Virus record (IMG/VR): IMGVR_UViG_3300030329_003445
Coordinates: 1-21,411 of that record
Reading direction: 5' to 3' (one strand)
Length of the DNA stretch: 21,411 nt
From: a virus
The stretch's first letter is position 1, and every line of letters starts with the position of its first letter. The translations under genes were made by a program, and so were the position numbers. The notes beneath the pieces were generated by a model that saw nothing but the letters and a program-made list of their open reading frames with translations, was not told the origin of the DNA and did no database searches. Positions 2,152-21,411 of this stretch are shown here, one piece after another.

Positions 2152-2195
2152 CTGCCGCTGGAGTCTTATGACGCTTCAGCGGCAGTTTCCTTTTC
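2152..2195 (+). terminator. Candidate rho-independent terminator for the rightward operon
   Basis: CTGCCGCTG at 2152-2160 pairs with CAGCGGCAG at 2177-2185, a 9-bp perfect stem that can be extended by three weaker pairs into the loop. It is followed on the plus strand by TTTCCTTTTC (2186-2195). This T-rich tail fits a terminator for plus-strand transcripts. It overlaps the last codons of the convergent integrase gene, which would let it shield that gene from antisense read-through. The interrupted T run makes strength uncertain. Confidence 0.5.
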
Positions 2196-3458
2196 AGCCC
2201 CGTAGTCGTAGGAGACGGGCTTCGGCGTGCTCGGCATGACATAGCGCTTCGTCGTCTTAATATCCTTGTGACCCAGCGCTCGCATCACATCGATCGTGTT
2301 GTTGAATTGATTGACCCGTGTCGCGAAAATCTTCCGCAGCTCATGAGCCTTCTGGCGGCGCGTCCAGCCGTGAGAGCGCATGAACACCGACAGATGAATA
2401 AAACCTCTCTGGCCCTTCTCTCCGTCCCCGAACCAACCCTTGTCGCCCGGTCGGAGATTGCCCGGCCCCTGCTGGCCCTTCGGCACGACATAATCGTCAT
2501 CGCCCATCGCCCAGCCGCGCTTGAGCGCCTCGCGCTGTAGGTTGGCCCTCAACTCCTCCGGCACGGCGATCCGGCGCTCCTCCTTGCCCTTCGTCATGTG
2601 GTCAGACTCCAACCGGGTCACGATGAATAGCTGGCCATCCTCCACGATAAACCATCCCCATCGCATCGCGAGAACCTCGGATTTCCGCAGGCCACCGTAG
2701 CAGCAGATTTGAAAGCAAAACCAAGTCCGCGCGTGCTCGGCCAGCAGGGAGTCTGCATTATTCCAGATGGCATCGATGACCTTCGACTCCGGCAGGGTGT
2801 AATTCTCCTTCGACATGACCGGCATGAACGGCGTCTCCTTCAAGTCCTTGAGAGCCGGAATCTTCAGCCCGGCATAAATCTTCTTCTTCACAGTGTTCCG
2901 CGAGAACACGCCCCTCGCGCAGCGCAGGCGGTTGTTGATCGTCTCATGCACCGAGTCCTTGCGCTTCATGTCCCCCTTGACCGGCTCGAGCATCGAGGCC
3001 ATCCACTTGTTGATCGTCTTCGCGTTCAGAACCGAGAGCCGCAGGGCGTGAATCTGCTCGACCTTCTCCGGCGTCGCCGGATCGTCAGCCCCCATGATGC
3101 CCGTGCCGACGCCCACAATTTTGTACAGAGCGGACAGATAACCTTTCATGGTCACATCGGTCAACGCCAGCAGCTCCTGACTCGCTTTAAGAGCGCCCAC
3201 GACTTCCCCAATCGTTGACCAGCTCCCGCTCGCCGCCTTCGTGTCGGTGACGGCCTCCCACTTGCCTGCCAGCGCCGCCGCGAAGATAGGCTTGGCCAAC
3301 GCCACCGCCTCATCGGCGTTCGTGACGCCCAAGGCTTGTCGCAGATATGTTTTATTTAACGATGTCCATAGCGACCACTTCTGTTTCTTGCCGCGCTTCC
3401 GCAGCGTGACCTTGTGTCCCTTGTACATGAATGTGTGTGTTGTTTTCGGTTTTTTCAT
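2166..3458 (-). CDS. int: Tyrosine-recombinase phage integrase
   Basis: The 430-residue protein has all expected catalytic positions of the lambda-integrase family: Arg258 in GGLRKSEVLAMRW, a beta-hairpin Lys near 289 (TKGKEERR), His372 and Arg375 in HELRKIFATRV, His397 in ALGHKDIKTT and nucleophile Tyr406. The N-terminal 65 residues are basic (YKGHKVTLRKRGKKQKWS) and fit an arm-binding domain. A helical core-binding domain follows at about 80-200. It should recombine the attP core at 3648-3697 with a host tRNA-Thr gene. The gene reads away from attP. Its ATG lies only 7 bases from a pair of 10-bp repeats likely to be its own arm sites, and no Shine-Dalgarno is seen, so integrase binding could limit its own expression. 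All key residues are present and length is normal, so it is probably active. Confidence 0.95.
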   Translation of the reverse strand: MKKPKTTHTFMYKGHKVTLRKRGKKQKWSLWTSLNKTYLRQALGVTNADEAVALAKPIFAAALAGKWEAVTDTKAASGSWSTIGEVVGALKASQELLALTDVTMKGYLSALYKIVGVGTGIMGADDPATPEKVEQIHALRLSVLNAKTINKWMASMLEPVKGDMKRKDSVHETINNRLRCARGVFSRNTVKKKIYAGLKIPALKDLKETPFMPVMSKENYTLPESKVIDAIWNNADSLLAEHARTWFCFQICCYGGLRKSEVLAMRWGWFIVEDGQLFIVTRLESDHMTKGKEERRIAVPEELRANLQREALKRGWAMGDDDYVVPKGQQGPGNLRPGDKGWFGDGEKGQRGFIHLSVFMRSHGWTRRQKAHELRKIFATRVNQFNNTIDVMRALGHKDIKTTKRYVMPSTPKPVSYDYGAEKETAAEAS

Positions 3459-3772: not shown

Positions 3773-3998
3773 ATTCTTCCCGCTCCAGAAAGACCGGGGT
3801 CTGCTTTCCTACCCAACCCCCGACCACATTGAACTCGAAGAAGTCGCTGGCCTCGTCCCGGCTCATGCCGTCGCGGCTCATCAAGACATCGAGGCATAGG
3901 TCGTAATCGTAGACGGCCACCCATGTCGTGAATTGCCGGGCAAGCCCTAGATAAGCATCCTCGAAGCCATCAGCCAGAAGGACGCCTTCAGTCCTCAT
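3759..3998 (-). CDS. Small conserved-looking phage protein, 79 aa
   Basis: This is the last gene of the leftward late operon. Its ATG overlaps the stop of the giant gene (ATGA), so it is probably translationally coupled. The 79-residue acidic product has a helix (FEDAYLGLARQFTTWVAVYD), an Asp-rich turn, then GMSRDEASDFFEFNVVGGWV and a C-terminal TPVFLEREE. From memory, short phage proteins with an E-x-x-x-FFEFN-V-x-G-x-V-G signature are frequent in marine and gut phage genomes, without known function. The 3' end extends into the P'-arm repeats of attP, so after integration the gene would lie at the very end of the prophage. A role in virions is possible from operon position only. Confidence 0.75.
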   Translation of the reverse strand: MRTEGVLLADGFEDAYLGLARQFTTWVAVYDYDLCLDVLMSRDGMSRDEASDFFEFNVVGGWVGKQTPVFLEREELAQI

Positions 3999-6900
3999 TT
4001 TTCAAACGCTTCCGCTGTTTCATCCAGACGCTTCCGCGCGTCAGCCCGGCCCACCTCGCTCACCGCCTCATCGACCTCCTGCTCGGCCATGTTGAACGCA
4101 GAGATAAACGCAGACAGATCGATATAGCGATCCTGCTGGGTCTCGTTGCGCCCCCCCATGATCGGCTTGCCTGACTCCAAGTAGCCTTCGCCCCTTGGCG
4201 CGCCGAGTGATTGCAGAGTGTAATACTCGCGGTGGAGCTTCCGCACGCGATCAGAGAACTCCAGAAACAGCTCATCCCGGCGCTCCTGCTCGCGGCCCAG
4301 CGCCTTGCGCTGAATCTCACGGTAGCCAAAATCGCTGATCTTTACAAAACGGTGCAGGGCCGGAATCATGCGAATTTTACCCTCCACGCCGTCCATCGTT
4401 TCGGGGTCGTAGCGGAACCAGTCCTGCAAGCCCGTCTGGTTGAGTGACCAGATCATCATGTCGTCCATGCCTCGCAGCCCGCCAGCAGAGAACTCGCGGC
4501 TGGGGATGATAGCCCGGTCGCCAAATCCGTCCTTTGGGTTGCGCTGGCGGAGGTAATCGCTCCAGCCCAGCAGGAGCGTGATAACGGGGTTTAGGCCGGG
4601 TACTTGGTCGCCACCAAACTCAAGCCCGCTCGCCGCCGAGGTCATCGACTCCAGCGGTTCGCCTTTCTCCCAAGCCTCGGCAGCGCCGCGCGTCATGATG
4701 TAGGTCAAGCCGGAGATCAACCGGGAAGTCTCATCCTTCGGGATTCGGATGTAAGCCACCTTCTTCCCATAGTCACTAGTCTCATCCGGCACGATGCCGA
4801 TTGGCAGGATGTTGTAATTGGCCATGTCGTAATCAGAGACACCGTCAAACAGCTCCTTGAGCATGACGCCCAAAAGACCGGCGGAACCCGCGCCCATCAT
4901 CATGGCCCAGAGGCCATCCCATGCCGCCCAGCGCTTCCACCAACCCGATCTCGTCTTGGGATCGGTCGCCTTCTCGTAGTCGGACTTCCAGCCCTTCAGA
5001 AAGACATTCCAGAACGGCACAATACCCTTGACCACCTTGATAGCCTTGCCTTTCTTGTAGACATTCGGTGTGCCGACGAAATTGCGGATTTCCATCGCAT
5101 AATCCTTGGGCGACACGCCACGCTCTTTGAAGACCACGCCGCTGGCGAGCTTCGGCAGGGATTCTAGGACTTGCCCAGAGAACTCCAACGGCGAGGTGAT
5201 CTTCTTAAATAGGCGAATGATCTGCCGGTGATCCGCGTCCTTGGGGAGTAAATTATAGCGCGCCAGCATATCCTCAAAGTATCCGTGACCGTAGTCGCCG
5301 GAGTGCATCGTCGAGATCGCAGACAATTCAACGCCGGAGATGGCATAATTCTCCATGAGCCGAGTCACCAGCGGATCATCCCTGCCCAACGACCGGCGGA
5401 GGGCGGGGGCCAGCGCCTGCGCGTATGCCTTGCCCAGCTTGATCGAGCCGACATTGAGGTTGCGGCGCGTGCGGGAGAAGTCCCGCTTCAGGTTGGCAGC
5501 TTGGAACGCGATATTGTAGGTGATCCAGAACGGGTAAAAGCCGGTGCGAAAGATGGCATCAAGTGGCCGGATCGTCTTCTCAAGTACGCCCGGCGGATCA
5601 TTCTCAAACGAGGCGGCGATATGCTCCTCCACCTCATAGAACTTGGGTCGCCCGTTATCCAGCACCATCAAGTGACCAAAGCCCGGCGGGGGGCGCTTGG
5701 TGACAACGACCTGCCCCTCCTTGTTGACCCTCGTCGGAACCAGCGTGATCTCGGTTGGGAAATGCTTCTTCATCAGGTCAATGAAGGAGTTTTTGGACTT
5801 CTGGATGGCGATCAGGTGATTGATGGAGACGAGCTTCAGCACCGTCGCCGTCATCGGGTTGGCAATGTCGCGCAGAGTACCCATCTGCTCCTTTACAGAC
5901 GCCGGGATGTAAGGCTCCAGATAGTCCAGAACCGCGAATGTCGCGTAGAAATCCTTGTTGGGCAGAATCTTCTCCACGAAGGTGCGCTGATTGTATGCCC
6001 CAACCCTCACCGCCTCCCTCACGACCTCGATGTTGATGTCATGAAGTGCCTTGGAGGCACGCTCCATGATGGTCATACGGTCAAAGCCCATCAGCAGGCG
6101 CATATTGCGAAGCCCACGCTGGGCGCTGACCGGCTCCAGACCCATCGGGTTGGCCAGCCCAGAGCGCTCGTTCACGATCCGCTGGAGCGTCAGGTATTGC
6201 CCGAACAACTTGGTGTCGATCCCGAACTCGTCCAGCTCATTGATGACCTTGCGGTGGATCATCTTCATCATCCGGCGGTTACGGTTGTCCACCAGAGATT
6301 CCTGCTCAAAGAAATTGCGCGGGTCACGACCCGCCGGGATGTCGGTTCCCTTACGGATCGCCTCCTTCACCTTCTGAACGGCGGGATAACGGGCATCATC
6401 GAGCGCCTGCATGACATCGAGCCAGTACCCCTTCCAGCTCCGTCGGCGCAGCTCGGCCTCCTCCAGCTTGCGCTTGAGGATTGCCTCACCCTTCTCAAAC
6501 ATCTCCGATAACTGGGCGCTGTGCGCCTTCGACACGCTGAACTGGCCGTTGTTAAGGAACTCCTGCAATCCAAAGAACGCCTTCTTCACCTCCGGCTTGG
6601 CGTCGATGTAATTCCAGAACATCTTGTAGAAGTGCGGCGAGTGTTCCTGCAAAAGCCCCGGCGAATTAAGCATGACCGACAGGGCATCGGCATACAGCTC
6701 CTTGCTCGACTCCCGGTACTTGATGTAATGCGGAGAAACCTCCTCCCGGTTGAACGGATGCCAGAACTCGGACAGGGCGATCAGCTCACCCGCGATCACA
6801 TCCGCCTCGGCCAAGCCACGCTTCTGGATGGCCTCCTCCACCAGCTCCGAGTATCGCTTGCTAACTTGCTCCCGCCAGCGCTCCATCCCTGCTGGATCGG

Positions 6901-9900
6901 TGGAGGGCCGTGGGCTGTACTCACGCTCGGCCTGCCTCCGCAACGCGGCGCGGTCGCCCTTGTCCAAGCCCTTGCCGCCGGGCGTGATAGGGAAAGTCTT
7001 CTTCAGGAACTCCGTCAGGGATGCCAGCCGCCCCAGAATGTTACCCCGCTTCAAGTGTTGATCGGGGAGGTAGTCGATCAAGTGGCCAATCTCATGGGCC
7101 AGCACCTTGGCGGCGGTGATCGGATCGAGGAAGATCGAGCGATCCAGATGGATTTCAATCCCGCCCGGCCCGTACCTGAAAAATCCAGCTGTACCACCGC
7201 GCAGCTTCCGCAGCTTGGGCAGCTCACCCAGCAGCTCCTTGGCCAACGCCACCAGCTCCGGCAGCATTACTGGGTTGATATGATCCAGACCGCCCAGCTC
7301 CATCTGCACAACCTCCGGCGCTTCGCCCTTCTTGACCGGGGCAGCAGAGAAGGTGATCTTCGGGCGAATCGGCCTGTCTTCCACCATCAAGCCAGCCTGT
7401 CCGCGCTCCCGCCCGAACCAAGAGTCGCTTTGAGGCAGGCCCAAGGTTGCACGCCTGCTGGTTGGGGTTGCGCCGCCGGTAATGACATCGGCCAGCACGC
7501 CCGCCTCGATGAGTGTGTCCAGTACATTGGCCTTTTCCGGCGAGAGCGACCCCTTGAAATAGGCGAGGCCGGAGGCGGCTCCCGCCTGCTGCGCCTCCCG
7601 GCGGATCGAGGCCACCAGCTCGTCGATCGGCGTGGAGAGGTTCAGCTCGGAGAGCGTCCGCACATGGCCGGTGGTGGTCGTGTACATGAGCGACACATGA
7701 CCTTCACCGTGCATGATGTTCTGGCCCACCGCAGCCACATCCTTCACCACATCCGGCCCGATAGGCCGGGCAATCTCCGGCCCCAAAAGTGGATCTACCT
7801 CCGGCCCTGCCGTCTCGATAATCTTGCCATCCCACTTGCCCGACGCATCCATGAGCGCCGCCTTGCGGTGATCGATTGTCACCGCGCCAAGAAAAAGCGG
7901 TTTAAGGAACGGATTCTCCACCAGAGCGCGGGTTGTCTCCATGTCCTTGGCGCTCGGCTTGGGATCGCCGGATGGATGATTATGCACCATGTAAAACCCG
8001 TCCGCGCCGTGGGCCTTGAATGAGTTGATGAGCGCCTCAAGGGAGGCAGGGCCGGGCGGCAGCGCCGCCACGCTGGTCGGCATCCGGCTGGTGACACTAT
8101 GCACGGCCACCACCTTGCCCTGCCTCATAAGCACCCAGCGGTAGGTTTCGATTGAGGCGTTTCGGAACACTTGGAACACCTCCGACGCATGGTTGATGCC
8201 GTCGATCCGTCGCCCGGCAATCTCCAACCCGCGCGGTGTGCTGATGTCCTCGCGCACTTTACGGGCGATCACCCGCTGCGGGGATGGCGCGGCCCTGTCC
8301 AGCGGCGCTGGCTCCTTCACGACCGGGTTGTTCCCAACACCAACCGCCGCCTCCAGCGCCTCAAAATTCACCTGTGGCTCCGACTTGTACCGGGGAGCCG
8401 CCGAGGGGGCGACATACCCGATGGGCGTCTCTGAAATATCACCCTTAACCGACGCACCCAGAAGCCGCAGCTTGGCCAAGATGATGCCGCTGTTCCATCG
8501 ATCCACTTTTAGGCCCGAATCGAGGATTTGCATCTCCGCCCGGCTGGCAGTCGTCAGGCGGTTGACCCGCCCGGCCATCTGCACAAACTCCAGAGCGCTA
8601 AACGGCGGCGTGATGACAATCATCGAGCGGGGCGCGTCCCCATAGAGATCATCCAGACTAACGCCCGTGCCGCCCGTCTCCGGCGTGGCCAGCACCACCT
8701 TGTGAGTGCCGTCCTGAAATTTCTCGATCGTCTCCTGCTTGGCTTGCCGCGCCGATTCGCTTGCCGCAGAACCAAATAGCCTGCCCACCTCGCCCGGCAT
8801 ATCCTTGTTGAGTTTCTGGAAGATCGCATTCAGCCCGTCATCCAAGCCCCATTTGCCCTGCTCAACGCGCTGGGCGAACACCACCACCTGACGCCCCTCT
8901 GCCACCGCCGCCTTGGTCAGCTTCATCGCATGAACCGCCTTCATGCTCTCAAGCGCATTACGCCCGGCCATCATCACAAGACGCTGGACAGCGCCAAATG
9001 GCTGTCCTTGGCTCGTATATTCCTCCTGCGCCAAGGACATGACCTTTTCTACAGTCTGGACTTGTTCATCGGTGAGCTGAACGCGCCGGAAATTGATGTC
9101 AATGTTGTCGAGCGGAACCTCATGCTTTATCGCCAGACCGGCGCGCGTCATGTTGTCAAACATCCGCTCGATATTGCGCTCGATCTGATCCATCGTAACC
9201 TCCAGCTTCGTGACAGGATCAACATAGGGGATAAATTGAACGCGAGGCTCGCCTCCCACATCCACCACCTCTTTCACAAGGCCCACATCCAACAGAGCCT
9301 GCTCCGGCGACATCCGCTTGCCTTGGCGGTTGACCAAAACCGAGTTGAGATAAAAAATGCCATGCGCTTTGTCCAAGGGGGTCGCCGTGGCAAACACGGC
9401 ATGATCCGCCGACTCGGCCAGCTTGCGGCCCCGGTGAGCCTGAATTGAGGAGCCTTGATTGCGGAGATTGTGGGCCTCGTCAAAGATCACCGTCTGCCAG
9501 CCCTCCGGCTTGACCACGCCACGCGCCACATCGGTATAGGTGGCCACCATGATTTCATGTTCCGGCCTGATCTCTCCGCCCCGGTAGCGCCACAGCTCCA
9601 CCCCCAACATTGCGGAGTCACGCGCAAAGGCATCGTTGATGATGCCGTCACTCTCGGTGACAATCAGAACCGGCTTGATGGGGGGCAGGGGAAGGGCGCT
9701 CTCGACAGGGGCCACCTCGCCCATTGGAGCCACCGAACGCTGGATTTCCTTGGCCTTGGCAATCGCAGCCGCCGCGATGGAGATTTCCACCATCGTCTTG
9801 CCAGCGCCTGTGCCGCTGAAGATCGCAAAGTCCCGGCCACTCGTCAGCGCATCCAGCGCCCGGTTGACCTCCTCAATCTGGTGGGGTCGCAGGATTTTAG

Positions 9901-12900
9901 CCTGCGCCGGGATCAGCTTGGCGGTGTGGTCGGGCTTGTTGGCCCGGCTGGGGGCGAGGTTCCTTCTCGCCTTGACGATTTGCTTGGGAGGTCGAGAAGG
10001 GGGCTTTCCAGACCGCCGCTTCTTTCCGGGTGCGTCAAAAAGCCCGCCAAGCTGAAGCTGTCGATCACTACGGACGACCTTTTCGGTTGGCTTGGGCTTG
10101 GGTTCTCTTGAGAGTTTTGCATTGTTCTCTACATTTTCAAAGCCGGGGAAGAAGTCGGGAAACTCGTCCAGACTGTCCACCTTGACTGGGTTATCTCCAT
10201 CGAACAGGGTAAACCCCGGCCCGTCGGAGAACATATCCTGCTGGGTTGTCATGTCGGATGCAATCTCTTTCGAGTCATCCTTCTTGAGTGAATCCTTGAG
10301 CTTGGCCTCCGCCTTCCTCTCCGCCTCCAGCGTGCGCTTGGACTCGGCCAGCAACTGCTCATTGTCGAAGCTGAAGAACTCCTGCCCCAGCTCCTCCTCG
10401 ATCGAGCGCATCTCCTCGATCTCCTTCTGGGTCAGATTGATGCCCCGCAGCTCCTTCTTCTTTAGTTTCTTCCAGCGCACGACAAGCGGGTTGGGCTGCA
10501 CCTTGTAGCGGCCCGTGTTGGCATCCTCCAGCATCCAATCCGGCCCAAGGCGGGAATTAACAAAGCCCCTGATAATCTCCAGTACGCTCTGCTCTTGAAA
10601 CATATCAATTGCATTGGGATCATGATTGGCGATGTGCCGATACACATCATCAAAGAAACCCGAAAATTCAGCGGCGGTGTCCGTCATGCTCACACGCCCC
10701 GCCTTGGTGTATTGAATGTTCTGCGCCAGCGCCGCCGCCATGCCGCGCGCCACCTTGATCTCCTGCGTCTCGTTAATCTGCCCCTGCTCAGAGAATTGAT
10801 CGAAGACCTTGGCAACGGAATCCCGGCCCTTGGCCCCCTTGTGCAAATCAATAAGGCCGTTGACCATCTCGGAGATGGCATCCGCCAGCGCCGTCTCCCC
10901 CTTGGCGCGCAGCTTCAGCACCGGGGCAATGGCCCCTCGGATCAAGCCCTCCCGGTAGACCGCCGGGATGTCAGGGTTATTGTAAGACTTGGTAAGTGCC
11001 GGGTTTTGGAACGCGCCCTGCGCCAGCAGATGCTTGAGGTATCCCTCAAAGCGCCCCGCATCCTCCACGATCGCGCGGCGCGTGTTGAAATCAATCCCGT
11101 GTTCCCCGATCTGCTTTGTGAACCACGACTGCTGCTCCTTCAGCGTTTCCTTGGTAGCAAGATTCGCCAAGGCATCAGGAGGGACTTGCCCAGCGTCGTT
11201 AACAGCCATGACACTTGTCTGCTCGACCAACCCCTCCGACGGGTTAAGCAGATCGACAACTGAATTAGCATTTTCAATCGACTCCGGCGTCGCCAGATCG
11301 TGGGAAGGCAGCAGTCGTACAAGCAGATGGTCATCAGTAGGCCGCGCAGATAATCCAAAGTGCTCCGCCATCTCGTTCTGGACTTGCCCGAACTTGGCGA
11401 GCTGGTCGGCGTCAAGCCGCTGGATGCTCTGGAATCTCCCGTTGCCACCTAATACGCGGAACACCCCATCCGTACCCTGACTTATCATCACCGGGCCATC
11501 CCCGGCGCTTGGCCCCATTGTGGTGTACGAATAAGGTTCCCAATTCTGTGCCATCCGAATGACCTTCTCCTTCTCGGACGGCAGCTCGGAGTAATCTCTG
11601 GTGTTTCGCAGAGGATTGTAAAGCTCGTTCTTCGCGAACCCATCCCCCACATGGCTCGACTGAATCTCCGACTTGGGAACCCAAGCATATACCGAATCCT
11701 GACGGCTTTCCTTGGCCCCCATCACAAAGGAAGCCTTGCCCTTGTGAACATTGGGATTGCTGACAGGCAGGAATGTGTCGCCGGTTGAGGGAGGCTCACC
11801 CTCCGCTGGCGGCTCGACTTCGCCCAGCATCTCCCTCAACTGCTGCTCCATCTCTTTCTGTTTATCGTAGTGTAATTGAGTCTCCGCAGCCAGCGCGTCA
11901 TAGTTCGGGTCATCCACATCCGCATTTCGCGATCTTTCAAACGCCGCGTCCAATGTCGCTCGGACATCAGCCATGTCTAAAACATGAGCCATAATGTTAG
12001 GATCACCCCCCACAAGCTCGGTGATCTCATCCTCCAGTTTGTTGAGAGTTTGATTGTCAGTCTTTGGATCAGCAAGGTCGCGAACCCTCCAAGTAATCTG
12101 ATCTGAAACAGGTTGAGGCTTATCTACTGCCGGAGCCGGTTCAATCTCCCGCCCAGGTGGTGGTTCTGCTGGCGGCTCCGGCTTCGGTTCTGCTGGCGGT
12201 TCCGGCTTCGGTTCCGGCGCTTTTGGTGGAGGCGGTTTCGGCACTTCCACATCCCTCGGCTTTGGCTCCGCCGGTAGCGGAATCTCGACCGGGGGCAAAG
12301 TTTCACCCGGCGCTGGCTCGGCTGGCTTTGGCTCGGCTGGCTTTGTCTTGGCGGTGCGCCCCGATACATGATCTACAAGCTCCCAGTTGATGGGATAACC
12401 CTCCTTGGCCATCCGATCTCTGGTAATGCTTCCCTCGCGGGACAAGCGAGGGATACCCAACGCACTCATCAAGGCCGCGCCAATGATTGCATTCTCCGCA
12501 GCGGCCCCGACATCCTCGGCCTCCATCACTCCCGGCGTTTGCAACGCCAGCAGATAGGCCGTCGTAGCCCCCTGACCACTCACAAATTCAGCCGTCTTGG
12601 CCAGACGCTCCAAGTTGACATTCATTTTTTCAGGAGACATCTTGGGTAACAGACCGCGCGCCTTGGCCACAAATTTACCCGGCTCCAACTGCTCCACCTT
12701 GATCCCGGCTTGGCGCAGCTTCTTCATCACCACATTGCTGCCGAATGTCCTGCCGAGTTTGTCCACCACCGGGATTCCGGCCACCATCGCCATACCCAGC
12801 GGGTTGATGCTGCCATCTTCGTTGAAACCGATGGCCCCGACGGCAATGCCTTGCTCCGCGCCGGTCGCCCATCTCTGGGCAGACTCCACGCGCTGACGAG

Positions 12901-13768
12901 TTGCGGCTGGGAGCCTGCCTCTGCCAGAGGGATCGCGGAGCACGGGGCGGCTGGGGTCTACCCCTTTTGCCTTCAATGTACTTCTGCCTCCAGCCGCCAT
13001 CGCACCGATCAGGACAGCAAACTCTCCCGCCATCACCGTTCCCTTTTGCGCCCAGCGCGAGGCCCACGGTTTCTTCTCCACATCCTCCCAGAATGGAAGG
13101 GGAGCGTGTTTGTCACGCACAAAGGTGCTTATATTGTTGGCCTTCTGGCCCTCGTCACCAAACCCCAAGGTCAACAAGTCTGCCACCGCCGCCGAGGCGA
13201 ACTTGCCGCCCATGTGAACAGGCTCGCCCACAAGTCTCTGGTAAGGTTCAAGCCCAACATCCTCCACCATCTTCAACCCCAGACCGCCCATGTTCGCGGC
13301 GTGATCCGCGTCCAACTGGGCCAGCGCCTGCGCCCGTTCCGCTTCCGTCCTGTGCGTGGCGCTGTTGTGGATCAACTCTCGATCCGCCTCGTACTTGAGC
13401 CGGAACTGCTCGGCCATTTCCGCCGTGCGCTTGTACTCCGAATGGCGCTTCTTTCTCTCATCAGACCCCCGAAACAGGCGATCTTCCGTCTCGTACTTTT
13501 CAAAGAAACCCTGCTTCTTCGCGCCGCCTTTGGGACTGCCGATCCGGCCAAACAAGGGAACCATCTTGTCCTTGCTTCCTTGAAGAAGGTCAGAGAGGCC
13601 GGGGCCGCGCGTCGTGGGTTTGCTTAACCCCTCGACATACGCCTTGAACTCCTCGTTCTTGAGGAAACCGGGGTCTTTCTCGGCCAACCACGGGGCCAGC
13701 TTTTCATCCGGCACATCCTTGAAGCGCGGGTCTTTCTCACGAACCCAATCTAGTACCTTGTTGGGCAT
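3995..13768 (-). CDS. Giant polyvalent protein: ParB/DdrB-like + SF2 helicase + RadC-like JAB + zinc peptidase + LPD38-like C-terminus
   Basis: This single 3257-residue frame joins several domains. Residues 1-50 hold two copies of a W-[VL]-x-E-K-D/P motif. About 470-560 is Pro/Glu/Lys linker. About 655-1010 is a ParB/DdrB-like region with GGNGR at 774-778. About 1300-1740 is a superfamily 2 helicase: Walker A GTGAGKT near 1319, DEAH near 1430, ATATP near 1458, QMAGRVNR at 1730-1737. A RadC-like JAB domain has H1929-N-H1931, S1939 and D1942 in JAMM spacing. An HEIGH zinc peptidase lies at 2225-2229 with likely third ligand Glu2357 (SSKELYADA). From about 2700 to the end it resembles the LPD38 domain of polyvalent proteins, with a hydrophobic patch near 2950-2970. 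No N6-methyltransferase motif is seen, unlike phage P1 DarB. Such proteins are thought to be packaged and ejected with phage DNA to protect or prepare it. The gene follows the portal and an internal virion-like gene, sharing one base with the latter's stop (TAATG). Its start lacks a clear Shine-Dalgarno. Confidence 0.9.
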   Translation of the reverse strand: MPNKVLDWVREKDPRFKDVPDEKLAPWLAEKDPGFLKNEEFKAYVEGLSKPTTRGPGLSDLLQGSKDKMVPLFGRIGSPKGGAKKQGFFEKYETEDRLFRGSDERKKRHSEYKRTAEMAEQFRLKYEADRELIHNSATHRTEAERAQALAQLDADHAANMGGLGLKMVEDVGLEPYQRLVGEPVHMGGKFASAAVADLLTLGFGDEGQKANNISTFVRDKHAPLPFWEDVEKKPWASRWAQKGTVMAGEFAVLIGAMAAGGRSTLKAKGVDPSRPVLRDPSGRGRLPAATRQRVESAQRWATGAEQGIAVGAIGFNEDGSINPLGMAMVAGIPVVDKLGRTFGSNVVMKKLRQAGIKVEQLEPGKFVAKARGLLPKMSPEKMNVNLERLAKTAEFVSGQGATTAYLLALQTPGVMEAEDVGAAAENAIIGAALMSALGIPRLSREGSITRDRMAKEGYPINWELVDHVSGRTAKTKPAEPKPAEPAPGETLPPVEIPLPAEPKPRDVEVPKPPPPKAPEPKPEPPAEPKPEPPAEPPPGREIEPAPAVDKPQPVSDQITWRVRDLADPKTDNQTLNKLEDEITELVGGDPNIMAHVLDMADVRATLDAAFERSRNADVDDPNYDALAAETQLHYDKQKEMEQQLREMLGEVEPPAEGEPPSTGDTFLPVSNPNVHKGKASFVMGAKESRQDSVYAWVPKSEIQSSHVGDGFAKNELYNPLRNTRDYSELPSEKEKVIRMAQNWEPYSYTTMGPSAGDGPVMISQGTDGVFRVLGGNGRFQSIQRLDADQLAKFGQVQNEMAEHFGLSARPTDDHLLVRLLPSHDLATPESIENANSVVDLLNPSEGLVEQTSVMAVNDAGQVPPDALANLATKETLKEQQSWFTKQIGEHGIDFNTRRAIVEDAGRFEGYLKHLLAQGAFQNPALTKSYNNPDIPAVYREGLIRGAIAPVLKLRAKGETALADAISEMVNGLIDLHKGAKGRDSVAKVFDQFSEQGQINETQEIKVARGMAAALAQNIQYTKAGRVSMTDTAAEFSGFFDDVYRHIANHDPNAIDMFQEQSVLEIIRGFVNSRLGPDWMLEDANTGRYKVQPNPLVVRWKKLKKKELRGINLTQKEIEEMRSIEEELGQEFFSFDNEQLLAESKRTLEAERKAEAKLKDSLKKDDSKEIASDMTTQQDMFSDGPGFTLFDGDNPVKVDSLDEFPDFFPGFENVENNAKLSREPKPKPTEKVVRSDRQLQLGGLFDAPGKKRRSGKPPSRPPKQIVKARRNLAPSRANKPDHTAKLIPAQAKILRPHQIEEVNRALDALTSGRDFAIFSGTGAGKTMVEISIAAAAIAKAKEIQRSVAPMGEVAPVESALPLPPIKPVLIVTESDGIINDAFARDSAMLGVELWRYRGGEIRPEHEIMVATYTDVARGVVKPEGWQTVIFDEAHNLRNQGSSIQAHRGRKLAESADHAVFATATPLDKAHGIFYLNSVLVNRQGKRMSPEQALLDVGLVKEVVDVGGEPRVQFIPYVDPVTKLEVTMDQIERNIERMFDNMTRAGLAIKHEVPLDNIDINFRRVQLTDEQVQTVEKVMSLAQEEYTSQGQPFGAVQRLVMMAGRNALESMKAVHAMKLTKAAVAEGRQVVVFAQRVEQGKWGLDDGLNAIFQKLNKDMPGEVGRLFGSAASESARQAKQETIEKFQDGTHKVVLATPETGGTGVSLDDLYGDAPRSMIVITPPFSALEFVQMAGRVNRLTTASRAEMQILDSGLKVDRWNSGIILAKLRLLGASVKGDISETPIGYVAPSAAPRYKSEPQVNFEALEAAVGVGNNPVVKEPAPLDRAAPSPQRVIARKVREDISTPRGLEIAGRRIDGINHASEVFQVFRNASIETYRWVLMRQGKVVAVHSVTSRMPTSVAALPPGPASLEALINSFKAHGADGFYMVHNHPSGDPKPSAKDMETTRALVENPFLKPLFLGAVTIDHRKAALMDASGKWDGKIIETAGPEVDPLLGPEIARPIGPDVVKDVAAVGQNIMHGEGHVSLMYTTTTGHVRTLSELNLSTPIDELVASIRREAQQAGAASGLAYFKGSLSPEKANVLDTLIEAGVLADVITGGATPTSRRATLGLPQSDSWFGRERGQAGLMVEDRPIRPKITFSAAPVKKGEAPEVVQMELGGLDHINPVMLPELVALAKELLGELPKLRKLRGGTAGFFRYGPGGIEIHLDRSIFLDPITAAKVLAHEIGHLIDYLPDQHLKRGNILGRLASLTEFLKKTFPITPGGKGLDKGDRAALRRQAEREYSPRPSTDPAGMERWREQVSKRYSELVEEAIQKRGLAEADVIAGELIALSEFWHPFNREEVSPHYIKYRESSKELYADALSVMLNSPGLLQEHSPHFYKMFWNYIDAKPEVKKAFFGLQEFLNNGQFSVSKAHSAQLSEMFEKGEAILKRKLEEAELRRRSWKGYWLDVMQALDDARYPAVQKVKEAIRKGTDIPAGRDPRNFFEQESLVDNRNRRMMKMIHRKVINELDEFGIDTKLFGQYLTLQRIVNERSGLANPMGLEPVSAQRGLRNMRLLMGFDRMTIMERASKALHDINIEVVREAVRVGAYNQRTFVEKILPNKDFYATFAVLDYLEPYIPASVKEQMGTLRDIANPMTATVLKLVSINHLIAIQKSKNSFIDLMKKHFPTEITLVPTRVNKEGQVVVTKRPPPGFGHLMVLDNGRPKFYEVEEHIAASFENDPPGVLEKTIRPLDAIFRTGFYPFWITYNIAFQAANLKRDFSRTRRNLNVGSIKLGKAYAQALAPALRRSLGRDDPLVTRLMENYAISGVELSAISTMHSGDYGHGYFEDMLARYNLLPKDADHRQIIRLFKKITSPLEFSGQVLESLPKLASGVVFKERGVSPKDYAMEIRNFVGTPNVYKKGKAIKVVKGIVPFWNVFLKGWKSDYEKATDPKTRSGWWKRWAAWDGLWAMMMGAGSAGLLGVMLKELFDGVSDYDMANYNILPIGIVPDETSDYGKKVAYIRIPKDETSRLISGLTYIMTRGAAEAWEKGEPLESMTSAASGLEFGGDQVPGLNPVITLLLGWSDYLRQRNPKDGFGDRAIIPSREFSAGGLRGMDDMMIWSLNQTGLQDWFRYDPETMDGVEGKIRMIPALHRFVKISDFGYREIQRKALGREQERRDELFLEFSDRVRKLHREYYTLQSLGAPRGEGYLESGKPIMGGRNETQQDRYIDLSAFISAFNMAEQEVDEAVSEVGRADARKRLDETAEAFEK
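12162..12209. repeat. 24-bp tandem repeat in the Pro-rich linker of the giant gene
   Basis: Two 24-base units, 12162-12185 and 12186-12209, differ at one position and are followed by a partial third copy from 12210. A shorter 15-base duplication, GGCTCGGCTGGCTTT, lies at 12315-12329 and 12330-12344. Both are in frame and encode Pro-Glu-Lys-Ala linker between the N-terminal part and the ParB-like domain. In-frame tandem units allow length change without breaking the gene. Confidence 0.7.
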
Positions 13769-17908: not shown

Positions 17909-18272
17909 AATATTGTCTCCTAAATCGTTTTGTTACCCTGTCGTACTGTTCCCATGTCCAGACCTTCAACTTCTCCTTGTTCGCCTTGTTCCGATGCCAA
18001 GCCACATACGGCAGCTTGAACGGCGCTACCTCCAGAAACCTCTGGAGAGCGCGCTGGCCAGCCCCCAACCAGACAAACCACACATCACAAACATCCTTGT
18101 CCCACGCCAGAAACTCGTCAGCCTGCGCCAGACATTCGCGAGGGACAGGACGACCCATAATGAAGCAATCAGAACCGCTCCACACATAGCCATGCTGAAG
18201 ATGCCAACCGAGAACACGATGAAAGTCATCATGTCCCTCCCATTCCGCAGCCGTGACAATGGGGCTATTCAC
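17892..18272 (-). CDS. Hypothetical Trp-rich phage protein, 126 aa (GTG start)
   Basis: A GTG at 18272 is preferred as start. It is preceded by AAGGAGGAGA and overlaps the stop of the previous gene by 8 bases. Starting at the upstream ATG (18365) would add 31 Arg-rich residues that are just the previous gene read in another frame. The resulting 126 residues contain about nine Trp in alternating strand/helix pattern: FHRVLGWHLQHGYVWSG, DVWFVWLGAGQRALQRFLE, LPYVAWHRNK, LKVWTWEQYDRV. Small proteins of this shape precede the internal core genes in many T7-like and marine podoviruses (comparable in position to T7 gp13), sometimes noted as acetyltransferase-like. The acyl-CoA loop is not evident here. 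The 3' end overlaps the next gene by 17 bases. Confidence 0.7.
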   Translation of the reverse strand: MNSPIVTAAEWEGHDDFHRVLGWHLQHGYVWSGSDCFIMGRPVPRECLAQADEFLAWDKDVCDVWFVWLGAGQRALQRFLEVAPFKLPYVAWHRNKANKEKLKVWTWEQYDRVTKRFRRQYYGNNS

Positions 18273-18645
18273 TCTCCTCCTTCTTCGGATTCGCCGGACT
18301 GCCCTCGGCGGCCTTAACGCTTGTATCCACCGTGACCTCTGGAGCCTCAAAGTCGGCAGGCGCAACCGGGCGCTGCTTCATAGCCTCAATCTGGCTGTCC
18401 AAAGAAGCAACCCAACCTTGGTCGGCCACGAATTGGCTAACGAGCTTGTTCGCATTGGACTTGAATGTGGACACGGCTGGACATTTACCCTCCGGGTAGT
18501 GGTATGTGCCGTCAATGTATGCCGAATTACCCTTACCATCCTCTGCGGTAAGGCCGATGACCACATGACAAACCTTGCCAGCCTCGGCGTGTCCGTCACA
18601 ATGGCATTGAGGTTCTAAACGAACGCATTTGTAAGTATTAGCCAT
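18265..18645 (-). CDS. Hypothetical protein with Cys-rich N-terminus, 126 aa
   Basis: The 126-residue protein begins with a Cys/His cluster (C7, C14, C16, H19, C26: KCVRLEPQCHCDGH, then KVCHVV), continues through a short beta-like part (NSAYIDGTYHYPEGKC) and a helical part (FKSNANKLVSQFVADQGWVA), and ends in an Ala/Pro/Glu-rich disordered tail (KKEESE). Cys spacing could bind a metal or form disulfides, but it does not match a zinc finger I know. The start follows the lipoprotein-like gene by 5 bases with AAGGA about 10 bases before ATG. Its own tail carries the Shine-Dalgarno AAGGAGG for the following GTG-start gene. Function unknown. Confidence 0.7.
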   Translation of the reverse strand: MANTYKCVRLEPQCHCDGHAEAGKVCHVVIGLTAEDGKGNSAYIDGTYHYPEGKCPAVSTFKSNANKLVSQFVADQGWVASLDSQIEAMKQRPVAPADFEAPEVTVDTSVKAAEGSPANPKKEESE

Positions 18646-18650
18646 ATCTA

Positions 18651-18866
18651 TTATTCCTTATCAGTTCCAATGTATTCTATGTCGAAGAATGGGGTATCCA
18701 CCTCCAGCGTACCGGGGAGCGACTTGCATCCTGCCCCGCACAAAACAACAAACACCGACAACCCAATGATCGTCAGCCACCGCTTGATCTTCTCCTTTAT
18801 CCTTTTCATAAAAGTTTTCTTCTCCCTCCTCGGAAACATGGCGTCTGGATCGTAGTCTCCATTCAC
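18651..18866 (-). CDS. Small membrane or lipoprotein-like protein, 71 aa
   Basis: The ATG at 18866 overlaps the previous stop (ATGA) and has GGAGG six bases upstream. The 71 residues comprise an acidic start, a basic stretch (FMKRIKEKIKRW, 19-30), a hydrophobic helix (LTIIGLSVFVVLCGAG, 31-46), Cys47 and a short acidic exterior (CKSLPGTLEVDTPFFDIEY). Cys after CGAG resembles a lipobox, though Gly at -3 is atypical. An internal Met20 would make a textbook lipoprotein signal sequence but has no well-spaced Shine-Dalgarno, so the longer form is preferred. Location next to tail-fibre and membrane-protein genes fits an o-spanin-like, membrane-anchor or superinfection-exclusion role. No companion i-spanin is recognised nearby. 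Confidence 0.65.
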   Translation of the reverse strand: MNGDYDPDAMFPRREKKTFMKRIKEKIKRWLTIIGLSVFVVLCGAGCKSLPGTLEVDTPFFDIEYIGTDKE

Positions 18867-19300
18867 TTCCTCCGCCCCCTCGCTGCCGGTTTGGCTTTCG
18901 GCTTGTCCACTATCGACACCTCCATTGGCCCCATCTGCTCGCTGCCCTTTGGTAGATAATCCGGCTCACAACCGTTGGGCAGGCGGCGCTCGACAGTCAG
19001 GTGCTTTAACTGACTGTTCGGGATTATCAGCGCGGTTCCCCTGTCCGCCATCTGGAATGTGGTGTTCAAACAACCTTTACGAATCACCCGCGCCTGACGC
19101 CCGTGGAGGAACAGGATTTCATCATTCCTCCACGACGAACTCCAGAAAACCATCATCCCCTGCACAAAATTCATCAACAAATCCTTCCCCATGAGCGCCA
19201 GAAACGCACATATGAATAACCAGCCATACTCACCCATTAAATTCTTCGCCACTCCCTCCATCGCTTCCTGACCTACAAGTTGTTGAACGATGTTTGTCAT
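18863..19300 (-). CDS. MscS beta-domain-like membrane protein, 145 aa
   Basis: The chosen ATG (19300) has GGAGG seven bases upstream and overlaps the tail-fibre stop (ATGA). A longer frame from 19354 would lie inside the fibre gene. Residues 1-25 form an amphipathic helix, and about 26-54 a hydrophobic helix (YGWLFICAFLALMGKDLLMN, then FVQGMMVF). The rest resembles the beta domain of small-conductance mechanosensitive channels: a polar turn (WRNDEILFLHGRQARVIRKG) aligned with MscS's GDWVEI-x-G-x-x-G-x-V, then CLNTTFQMADRG, and the hallmark IPNS-x-L at 93-98. The C-terminus is a basic disordered tail (KPKAKPAARGRRK). MscS normally has three membrane helices and an alpha/beta C-terminal vestibule. 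Only a TM3-plus-beta core is present here, so a channel, a virion or a membrane protein are all possible. Resemblance is by motif only. Confidence 0.72.
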   Translation of the reverse strand: MTNIVQQLVGQEAMEGVAKNLMGEYGWLFICAFLALMGKDLLMNFVQGMMVFWSSSWRNDEILFLHGRQARVIRKGCLNTTFQMADRGTALIIPNSQLKHLTVERRLPNGCEPDYLPKGSEQMGPMEVSIVDKPKAKPAARGRRK

Positions 19301-21411
19301 CCGGTTCCCTCCAACTGCTCTATACGCTTGAGTGCGTCTTGCAACGCTCCCCATAAAATTGGAACCATTTGCGAGTGGGCTACTCCTTGGTATTTCTCCC
19401 CATCTTTTTCGCCAGTAACTAAATCGTTTAGCTGAATCTTTTCATCACACTCATGGGCAAGAAAGCCTACCCGGTCTTGTGTTTGTGCTGAATGGCGGCG
19501 AGCCTCGCACTTGTTGTTCCAGCGATACGAATAAACAGGAAGCGATTGTACGAGATTAGCGGCATTCGATGTGTCCCACGGTGTTAGATTGTCCTTCAAG
19601 CGGTAGTCCGAAGACTCTGTTACTGACCAGCAATAAATATTCCCAACGACATTAACATGGCCCCCCGTTTTTATTTTGTAATCCGTATCAACAACCGAGC
19701 CTACCCCCATGCTCCCAGCAATATAAGTATTGCCCGTGAAGGTTGCTGCGGTTCCCGAAAGTGTGGAACCCACCGACAAAGTGTCATCACACTCAACCGC
19801 ATTTTTAAGTAGGGTAGTCCCGTTGACATACAACTTATGTGAACCGGGGTCTGTCGTTCCTATGCCAACATTGCCGTCAGACATGATCCTTACCGCTTCA
19901 GAAGTTCCAACCTCAAAAGCAAGCGAATCTCCATTGTGTCGGTACACGATTCTTCCAGCGTCATCGTCTGCTGAATCTCCAAAATTTATAACATTTAGAG
20001 CAGTAGTTGATCCTCCTTTTAAGAAAAGATGGGTGCTTTGAGACGCATTAGTGCTTGTGTTATACAGCCGCATTGAAGCACCTGACTTTTCAACATCCAA
20101 CAGGTGGTTTGGCGAATCTGTCCCAATGCCGACATTGCCGTCTGCTTGAATTCTAAATTTTTCAGATGCGCCAGTTTCTACCCGCAGCCCCGAAGCAGTT
20201 CCCATTCCGCCTGCCACAATGACTCTAACGCCGTTGTTCTCGGTTAATGCCCCCGTGACACCGACATTGGCGTTTGTTGTTTGTGACTGAATGTATAGCG
20301 GTGCTTGAGCGTTTGAAGTATTGGAGTCTACAAATATAGCACCAGCGTATTTTCCCGTGCTGTCATATCGTTCCCGAACAAAATCTATTCCGCTAGAATT
20401 GCCGTTACCTGTCTGCTCTATTCTAACAATTGCGTTCCCTCCAGCTTTATAGGTATGAAGCAATGATGATGGCTCAGTAGTCCCTATGCCGACACGACCC
20501 CCATAGGTACTGTCTGTTCCTGCAAACAATACTGGAGAGCCTCCATCCTCCAATGTGATCCCACCAGTACCATCCTGCCTAATGCTGGCAGAATAAGAAG
20601 AATTTACTCTCCACTCCCTATAACTTAACCAGTTGGCTGTACCTGTGTCAAAGGTGTAAAGATTACCAGTAATCCTAGCGGCCCCATTTACATGAAGGGG
20701 TTGGTCTGGCGCAGTAGTCCCAATGCCGACATAGCCGTCAGAATCAAGCACCATTGCCGTTGTTGAACCATCGCTTTTATAGAACTGCGCTATGTTGTTG
20801 CCCGTGGCCCCGACTGTCATTAACCCCGTGGTTCCCGGCAGCGCAACGGTGTGGAAGGTTCCACCGGGGCTGGTTGTTCCGATGCCGACTTTGCCGTCAG
20901 ATTTAATACGAACCCTTTCTCCTCCACCAGCCTGTAGGAACATATTGTCACCAATAGAACCTAATGTGACTTTATAATCTGCTGTGGTAGTTGGGTCTTG
21001 AAATTCAAGGCCAGACTTCGTTGTAGAAGCTCCACCTATAATTCTTACTGGTAAATTATCCCCAGAACCGCCTACAACTGTAAGTTTTCTACCGGGGCTA
21101 GTAGTCCCTATGCCGACTTTGCCAGCATCTGTAATCCTCATTCTTTCACTTCCCGACCCAGAAGTGCCTGTGTTAAATATTATGTCGTCTGCAACTAGCC
21201 GTAAATTTTCTGGGTTGCCACTATTATTGCTCCCCTTGAGGGTGATTAATGAATCGTCATAGTTGGCAAGGAACCTCCGACCACTTGTGAAAAACACATC
21301 AAGCAAGGAAATCGGCGAAGCAGTCCCAATGCCGACATAGCCAGTCTGATCTATGACTAAAGCGTTGGCTCTGACGTTGCCGCCATCCGTTAAAGAAAAC
21401 TCCCAACTATT
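19297..21411 (-). CDS. Tail fibre/spike protein with VGIGT repeats and S74 self-cleaving chaperone (5' truncated)
   Basis: The frame stays open to the window end, so the true start is outside; 704 residues are visible. Seven units of about 53-120 residues each end in a motif such as SDGKVGIGTTSPG followed by LLDV, LTV or LHV, typical of beta-rich trimeric fibre shafts. The corresponding ATGCCGAC DNA words lie at 19862 (one mismatch), 20126, 20486, 20723, 20882, 21110 and 21329, all in frame. The C-terminal 104 residues begin at SDYRLKDNL and contain YSYRWNN, VGFLAHE and a terminal helix: the peptidase S74 intramolecular chaperone, in which Ser and Lys of S-D-x-R-x-K drive autocleavage after trimer folding. 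The protein probably recognises the host surface. Its stop overlaps the MscS-like gene in ATGA. Confidence 0.9.
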   Translation of the reverse strand, partial: NSWEFSLTDGGNVRANALVIDQTGYVGIGTASPISLLDVFFTSGRRFLANYDDSLITLKGSNNSGNPENLRLVADDIIFNTGTSGSGSERMRITDAGKVGIGTTSPGRKLTVVGGSGDNLPVRIIGGASTTKSGLEFQDPTTTADYKVTLGSIGDNMFLQAGGGERVRIKSDGKVGIGTTSPGGTFHTVALPGTTGLMTVGATGNNIAQFYKSDGSTTAMVLDSDGYVGIGTTAPDQPLHVNGAARITGNLYTFDTGTANWLSYREWRVNSSYSASIRQDGTGGITLEDGGSPVLFAGTDSTYGGRVGIGTTEPSSLLHTYKAGGNAIVRIEQTGNGNSSGIDFVRERYDSTGKYAGAIFVDSNTSNAQAPLYIQSQTTNANVGVTGALTENNGVRVIVAGGMGTASGLRVETGASEKFRIQADGNVGIGTDSPNHLLDVEKSGASMRLYNTSTNASQSTHLFLKGGSTTALNVINFGDSADDDAGRIVYRHNGDSLAFEVGTSEAVRIMSDGNVGIGTTDPGSHKLYVNGTTLLKNAVECDDTLSVGSTLSGTAATFTGNTYIAGSMGVGSVVDTDYKIKTGGHVNVVGNIYCWSVTESSDYRLKDNLTPWDTSNAANLVQSLPVYSYRWNNKCEARRHSAQTQDRVGFLAHECDEKIQLNDLVTGEKDGEKYQGVAHSQMVPILWGALQDALKRIEQLEGTG

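Follow-up and report, generated by a model that had tools for sequence, protein, structure and literature searches.

The locus and its product

The gene considered here lies on the minus strand at positions 18863..19300 of IMG/VR virus record IMGVR_UViG_3300030329_003445, a stretch of 21,411 bases that is probably a fragment and that is referred to, at its whole length, as the window. On the evidence of sequence and structural modeling, its product is a very short member of the MscS superfamily composed of one pore helix and a beta-domain only, and it represents a genuine, widespread and unannotated phage branch of that superfamily. The gene and the parts of its product are as follows.

18863..19300 (stop included), minus strand: MscS-like minimal protein (P0001), from its open reading frame (ORF) and translation, an ATG with ribosome-binding site, a match to Pfam PF00924, and the predicted fold
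19139..19225, minus strand: single transmembrane (TM) helix, residues 26-54, equivalent to the MscS pore helix (TM3), from the AlphaFold2 (AF2) model, a hydrophobic segment, alignment with a stretch of YnaI, and conserved K39-D40, N44 and G48
18980..19132, minus strand: MscS beta-domain, residues 57-107, with five strands and a short helix at IPNSQL, from AF2, Pfam (residues 40-99), Foldseek and VIA-align
18866..18979, minus strand: C-terminal tail, residues 108-145, replacing the alpha/beta vestibule, with no Pfam match above cut-off, low predicted local distance difference test (pLDDT) values, no secondary structure, and a family-conserved YLPKG motif

Read from 19300 to 18863, the ORF encodes 145 residues beginning MTNIVQQL, and GGAGG stands just 5' of the ATG.

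Extent of the family

Used alone as the query, the window protein found no relative among viral contigs and only a chance match among phage records (expectation value, E, of 7), and five family members found no credible match among 50,697 phage records. A syntenic homolog, 72% identical (L006), was reached through a neighboring gene on a phage contig, and alignments of growing size recovered 4, 10 and then 212 related viral contigs from IMG/VR, the last figure coming from one scan. The best 80 of these 212 relatives were kept. Five of 96 loci had no family match and were dropped (L002, L003, L004, L005 and L007), and 9 of 92 matches proved to duplicate either the window or a record already counted. 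The 83 distinct records left, the window included, form 30 clusters when grouped at 90% identity and, with L097 added for context, make up 84 loci. Members missed by a simple gene caller (L036, L063 and L070) are included in the profile-based counts.

Contigs from bacterial genomes gave no match with the first alignment and a single one with a larger alignment, L097 (NZWA01000041.1), which is binned in a Flavobacteriales metagenome-assembled genome. Because its neighbors are those of the phages with a PhoH-like gene described below, the match probably lies on a phage contig that entered the bin rather than in a host gene.

Homology to the MscS superfamily

PF00924 (MS_channel_2nd) matches residues 40-99 of the window protein at 19.8 bits (E 8.6e-4), just short of the 20.2-bit cut-off; scored as an open frame, the same gene reaches 21.2 bits, above that cut-off. 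The curated cut-off is exceeded in seven of the eight records tested. For the Pfam scan and the AF2 alignment, 50 members were picked from the 83, with near-copies left out, and PF00924 is found in every one of them (E<=1; best E 5.7e-7), and chance similarity was rejected on this ground. Other weak Pfam matches, EBV-NA1 and L7Ae among them, are present in 1-3 of the 50 members and were set aside.

Searches of PDB sequences point the same way. All 14 matches of the family profile at E<=1 are MscS-family proteins (Helicobacter pylori MscS, MSL1 and YnaI), the best E being only 0.02, for H. pylori MscS, and MscS-family proteins account for 14 of the 17 matches of a smaller family profile at E<=10. 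As a single sequence, the window protein had no match in the PDB search, nor did it have one in an NCBIfam search. PHROGs returned no family for the window protein or for L059 at E<=1, none for L006 at E<=10, and no lysis or holin family; with L068 it gave two weak matches, both of function unknown. Homology of the window protein to the MscS superfamily is highly probable.

The gene is under purifying selection. Across 229 pairs from 60 loci with synonymous divergence (dS) of 0.15-1, the ratio of nonsynonymous to synonymous divergence (dN/dS) has a median of 0.056 and a maximum of 0.226; pairs involving the window gene itself are saturated. A decayed host mscS was rejected on the strength of this median together with the conserved length and tail. 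A cellular contaminant was likewise rejected: the seven virus records tested all carry one copy each, and phage genes, terminase and tail genes among them, adjoin on the maps inspected.

Predicted fold

The AF2 model, a monomer computed from the alignment of 50 sequences, has helices up to residue 54, followed by strands at residues 62-65, 68-73, 79-84, 90-94 and 103-106 and a short helix at IPNSQL. Its pLDDT is about 71-81 across residues 21-100, and a model from a 10-sequence alignment agrees with it. The best Foldseek match in the PDB is MscS 6pwn (E 5e-4, probability 1.00); among the 50 matches listed, 46 are titled as MscS, YnaI, YbiO, MscK, MSL or Flycatcher channels and the other 4 as "a membrane protein". 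In VIA-align comparisons, where 3t9n and 3udc were presumed to be MscS, the channels scored Z 8.8 to 6.0 over 80-96 residues (MSL10 8.8, MscK 8.1, MscS 7.8, TcMscS 6.9), and the best unrelated chain 5.9 over 53 residues. Identity between the model and the solved channels is 8-18% over aligned residues.

Among viral models in BFVD, the top matches are two uncharacterized proteins, A0A516LVN0 (104 residues, E 4.6e-6) and A0A516MLU7 (129 residues, E 2.1e-5), likened to the phage family by predicted fold alone. Giant-virus MscS proteins rank next, and proteins of Aureococcus anophagefferens virus (AaV) and Sylvanvirus match the model.

Anatomy of a minimal family member

At the threshold used, each of the 83 members has one hydrophobic segment, and in the window protein hydropathy peaks at residues 28-46. 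In alignments this helix corresponds to the latter half of the MscS pore helix, sharing the pattern KD-x-L-x-N-x(3)-G, for which YnaI has GKDILSNFFSG. Taking one representative per cluster, N44 is present in 27/30 and G48 in 28/30; these correspond to the conserved N and G of TM3b, which we take to be N117 and G121 in MscS numbering. PMC12334622 names L105 and L109 of MscS.

Residues identical in all 30 clusters include G26, D60, I62, G67, R68, A70, R71, R74 and G76, and further F82, D86, R87, N95, L98, E104, L107, Y115, L116 and V128. Positive charge is greater after the helix than before it in 76 of the 83 members, a distribution weakly in line with a cytoplasmic beta-domain.

The KD/N/G pore-helix motif and the five-stranded beta-domain are shared with Escherichia coli MscS, YnaI, H. 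pylori MscS and Arabidopsis MSL1 and MSL10. Unlike these channels, the phage proteins are only 128-170 residues long and have a single TM helix. The TM1-TM2 helices, which in MscS are the lipid-facing sensor helices, are absent from all 83 members; there is no alpha/beta vestibule, the 38 residues after the beta-domain of the window protein having no vestibule-domain match in Pfam, and the YLPKG tail is the family's own.

A sequence-only reading of the window had proposed a phage-encoded minimal MscS beta-domain membrane protein at exactly these coordinates, with a hydrophobic helix followed by the MscS beta-domain pattern as far as IPNS-x-L, here IPNSQL. The ORF, its start signals, hydropathy, the Pfam matches in the window and in the whole set of 50, AF2, Foldseek and VIA-align all uphold that proposal. 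The reading had named in advance what would speak against it, namely no profile match and a fold other than SH3-like at residues 55-110; PF00924 does match, and the fold predicted there is SH3/Sm-like. Its description of a basic tail in place of the vestibule needs narrowing, as the tail is basic in the window protein and its nearest kin, whereas in the largest group it is acidic.

The lipoprotein partner and the gene contexts

The window gene stands between a tail-fiber gene and a lipoprotein-like gene, as the same reading had placed it. Three genes of the minus strand surround it.

19297..21306, minus strand: tail-fiber gene directly upstream (Peptidase_S74 match, E 6.8e-8); the TTG start listed for this ORF is uncertain, and the gene may extend beyond the window edge
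18651..18866, minus strand: short lipoprotein-like gene, the partner (cluster C1), from its ORF, family profile and position, and the lipobox-like VVLCGAGC
18265..18645, minus strand: protein of 126 residues and unassigned role, 3' of the lipoprotein gene, from its ORF; syntenic in related phages

Both flanking junctions overlap by 4 nt, the ATG of the MscS-like gene lying over the stop of the preceding tail-fiber gene and its own stop over the GTG start of the lipoprotein-like gene that follows.

The pairing with a lipoprotein extends across the family. A same-strand gene of the lipoprotein cluster is present in 78/84 loci and lies no more than 100 bp downstream in 73/84; the exceptions in distance are L033 (226 bp), L016 and L017 (821 bp), and L018 and L019 (about 960 bp). 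In 70 of 73 comparable lipoprotein frames the start codon falls between -25 and +60 nt from the MscS-like stop, and in 65 the two genes overlap or nearly do so. The neighbor profiles were built from the loci counted, so these figures describe position and are not independent discovery. A PROSITE-like lipobox pattern is satisfied in 67 of 79 lipoprotein frames (the 78 and that of L002); VVLCGAGC in the window departs from the strict pattern by having a cysteine at -4. Distant phages (L043, L052) share with the window copy an identical lipoprotein core, CKSLPGTLEVDTPFFDIEY, although the mature part comprises only some 25 residues. An antisense ORF cluster over the lipoprotein gene (C9) proved false, and the counts come from profile searches instead.

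The MscS-like gene occurs in two main contexts, with and without a PhoH-like neighbor. That neighbor is found in 24 loci (Pfam E 1e-48), with a terminase gene further on. In the 49 loci that have no PhoH-like neighbor and at least 3 kb of downstream sequence, the first 3 kb contain the lipoprotein gene in 49, a one-TM protein of 51 residues in 45, a holin-like gene (C2) in 45 and an Rz1-like gene in 35. In a tree of the 30 representatives, a branch with support 97/86 sets the PhoH context apart, and the window's kin likewise separate from it.

Members of the holin-like family are 53-65 residues long (L009 2134-2295, L107 7474-7671 and similar), have only weak PHROGs holin matches (E 0.03-0.5), and are present at most loci as well as in the record of L002. 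At L043 11909-12307, a short one-TM ORF has a lipoprotein ORF nested in another frame near 12033, as in Rz/Rz1, and similar nested pairs occur in L009, L010, L011 and L015.

Two records are informative about the relation between the MscS-like gene and these lysis-like genes. L002, whose portal is 92% identical to that of the window phage, has no PF00924 match across its whole 47.5-kb record; in the corresponding slot it carries a one-TM protein of 94 residues, then the 51-residue protein and the lipoprotein, and holin-like and Rz1-like genes lie elsewhere in the record. The 94-residue protein (L002 7699-7983) is non-homologous to the MscS-like protein, with a charged helical tail and a PHROGs match of function unknown (E 4.3e-4). 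In L013, the MscS-like gene and the lipoprotein are near one end of the record, and holin-like and Rz1-like genes are about 33 kb away.

Elsewhere in the window, positions 3995-13768 of the minus strand form one ORF of 3257 residues with helicase-type (ResIII, Helicase_C) and RadC/JAB-like domains, presumably akin to the large polyvalent proteins of some phages. A phage integrase is encoded at 2166-3458 on the same strand (Pfam E 4.5e-14), so that the phage may be temperate. No tRNA genes were found in the window.

Relation to known systems

Phage MscS-like genes are not wholly new in print. Genes of both the MscS and the MscL type are described from large DNA viruses, including an MscS-like protein of AaV with 261 residues and three TM helices (PMC6163359). 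For gp51 of phage PANV1, HHpred matches to MscS and a single TM helix, itself doubtful, are reported (PMC9239159), and MscL as well as "mechanosensitive ion channels" are recorded from estuarine viruses (PMC13288924). The AaV protein, like the phage family, is viral and MscS-type, but it has three TM helices and belongs to a giant algal virus. PANV1 gp51 is an MscS-type gene in a phage and is likened to the family by its published description only. The literature searches brought up no widespread one-helix phage MscS family accompanied by a lipoprotein and, beyond these sources, nothing else bearing on a phage MscS.

The closest functional parallel is protozoan. TcMscS of Trypanosoma cruzi is described as a working heptameric mechanosensitive channel that lacks the alpha/beta domain (PMC12334622). 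The phage protein similarly ends after the beta-domain region and its model matches TcMscS, which differs in that an N helix and TM2 precede its TM3. Phage holins and Rz/Rz1 spanins resemble the phage family as late small envelope proteins, and such neighbors lie downstream in one group, but no PHROGs lysis family matches the MscS-like protein.

Proposed role and alternatives

The wide carriage of this gene by uncultured phages, usually beside a small lipoprotein gene, suggests that these phages make a membrane pore of their own late in infection. Since L002 keeps lysis-like genes without the MscS-like gene and those of L013 are so far removed from it, the latter looks like an accessory envelope function, and its product is probably an accessory pore of the envelope, not the phage's holin. 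A link to the envelope or lysis program is backed by the lipoprotein partner and by the place of the gene, in one group, directly before holin-like and Rz1-like genes. The sequence-only reading's functional suggestions, a membrane pore that may assist lysis or DNA entry or a product that may interfere with the host's osmotic channels, are conjectural. As to what such a pore would do, we tentatively favor, at somewhat less than an even chance, a pore formed late in the infected cell's inner membrane that would tune osmotic balance or the collapse of the envelope as an accessory to the holin-like and spanin-like genes. Several copies, perhaps seven by analogy with MscS and its miniature Trypanosoma relative, would assemble in that membrane as a small ring, with the N-terminus outside, the beta-domain in the cytoplasm and the pore open-ended. 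Made late, together with the lipoprotein, the pore would adjust the balance of ions and solutes, or the tension of the membrane, as the cell dies, acting either as a safety valve against too-early bursting of a stressed cell or as a helper in envelope collapse at lysis. It would supplement the phage's own holin-like and spanin-like genes without replacing them. A more specific version, in which this is the smallest known MscS-type pore and forms with the short lipoprotein a tension-responsive envelope device that decides when the infected cell bursts, is doubtful.

Several observations weigh against a pore of this kind. TcMscS makes a pore from such a core plausible, being a heptameric channel without the alpha/beta domain; yet even TcMscS keeps TM2, and the absence of both TM1 and TM2 from the phage proteins counts against channel function. 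Confidence in the AF2 model is moderate (mean pLDDT 67.3, predicted template modeling score 0.41, monomer only). Six of the 84 loci have no lipoprotein gene (L075, L090-L093 and L097), no endolysin was identified beside the MscS-like gene, and holin-like or Rz1-like genes were not found within the stretches covered in the 24 PhoH-group loci. The labels "holin-like" and "Rz1-like" themselves were assigned from size, topology, gene nesting and the weak PHROGs matches.

Small phage lipoproteins can act in superinfection exclusion, and the MscS-like protein and its lipoprotein, with the 51-residue protein in many phages, might instead be an envelope module that alters the host surface and blocks later phages or DNA entry. 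Such a function is unlikely, but it would suit a conserved unit of membrane protein and closely spaced short lipoprotein that recurs in two unrelated contexts, on the tail-fiber side and the PhoH side, and the L002 slot holds its 94-residue protein with the same lipoprotein and 51-residue protein, as swappable accessory genes would. The sequence names no receptor, however; in one group the module directly precedes holin-like and Rz1-like genes, and conservation of the pore-helix motif is left unexplained. The same motif bears on a non-channel use of the MscS core, as a membrane-anchored scaffold that would bind lipid, the lipoprotein or a further phage protein through conserved charged residues of its beta-domain. 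Invariant R68, R71, R74, D86, R87 and E104 and the YLPKG tail suggest a specific partner, and the loss of TM1 and TM2 would be in keeping with this role, but K39-D40, N44 and G48 of the pore helix are conserved as in MscS-type channels, and a scaffold seems rather unlikely.

That the protein is itself a holin or pinholin, gathering in the membrane and triggering lysis by a timed depolarization, would account for a small late membrane protein in the lysis-like neighborhood of one group. It is improbable, as the same phages have a separate two-TM holin-like gene, L013 among them, as does L002, and holins do not usually have a conserved beta-domain in the cytoplasm. Dominant interference, in which MscS-type channels of the host are blocked by the subunits or take them up into mixed assemblies, altering the osmotic-shock response of infected cells, would fit the retention of pore helix and beta-domain with loss of sensor helices and vestibule. 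The low identity to solved channels speaks against it, however, and a family so conserved across very different phages would need to fit many hosts; we consider it very improbable.

Implications

If the accessory pore reading is true, phages have a pared-down form of the osmotic safety valve of bacteria as a gene of their own, in a family that is widespread in IMG/VR yet lies outside PHROGs. A channel of one helix and one beta-domain would stand a step below even TcMscS and would allow the requirements for tension sensing by an MscS pore to be studied in their simplest form, and with its conserved lipoprotein partner it would offer a two-gene system directly open to testing.
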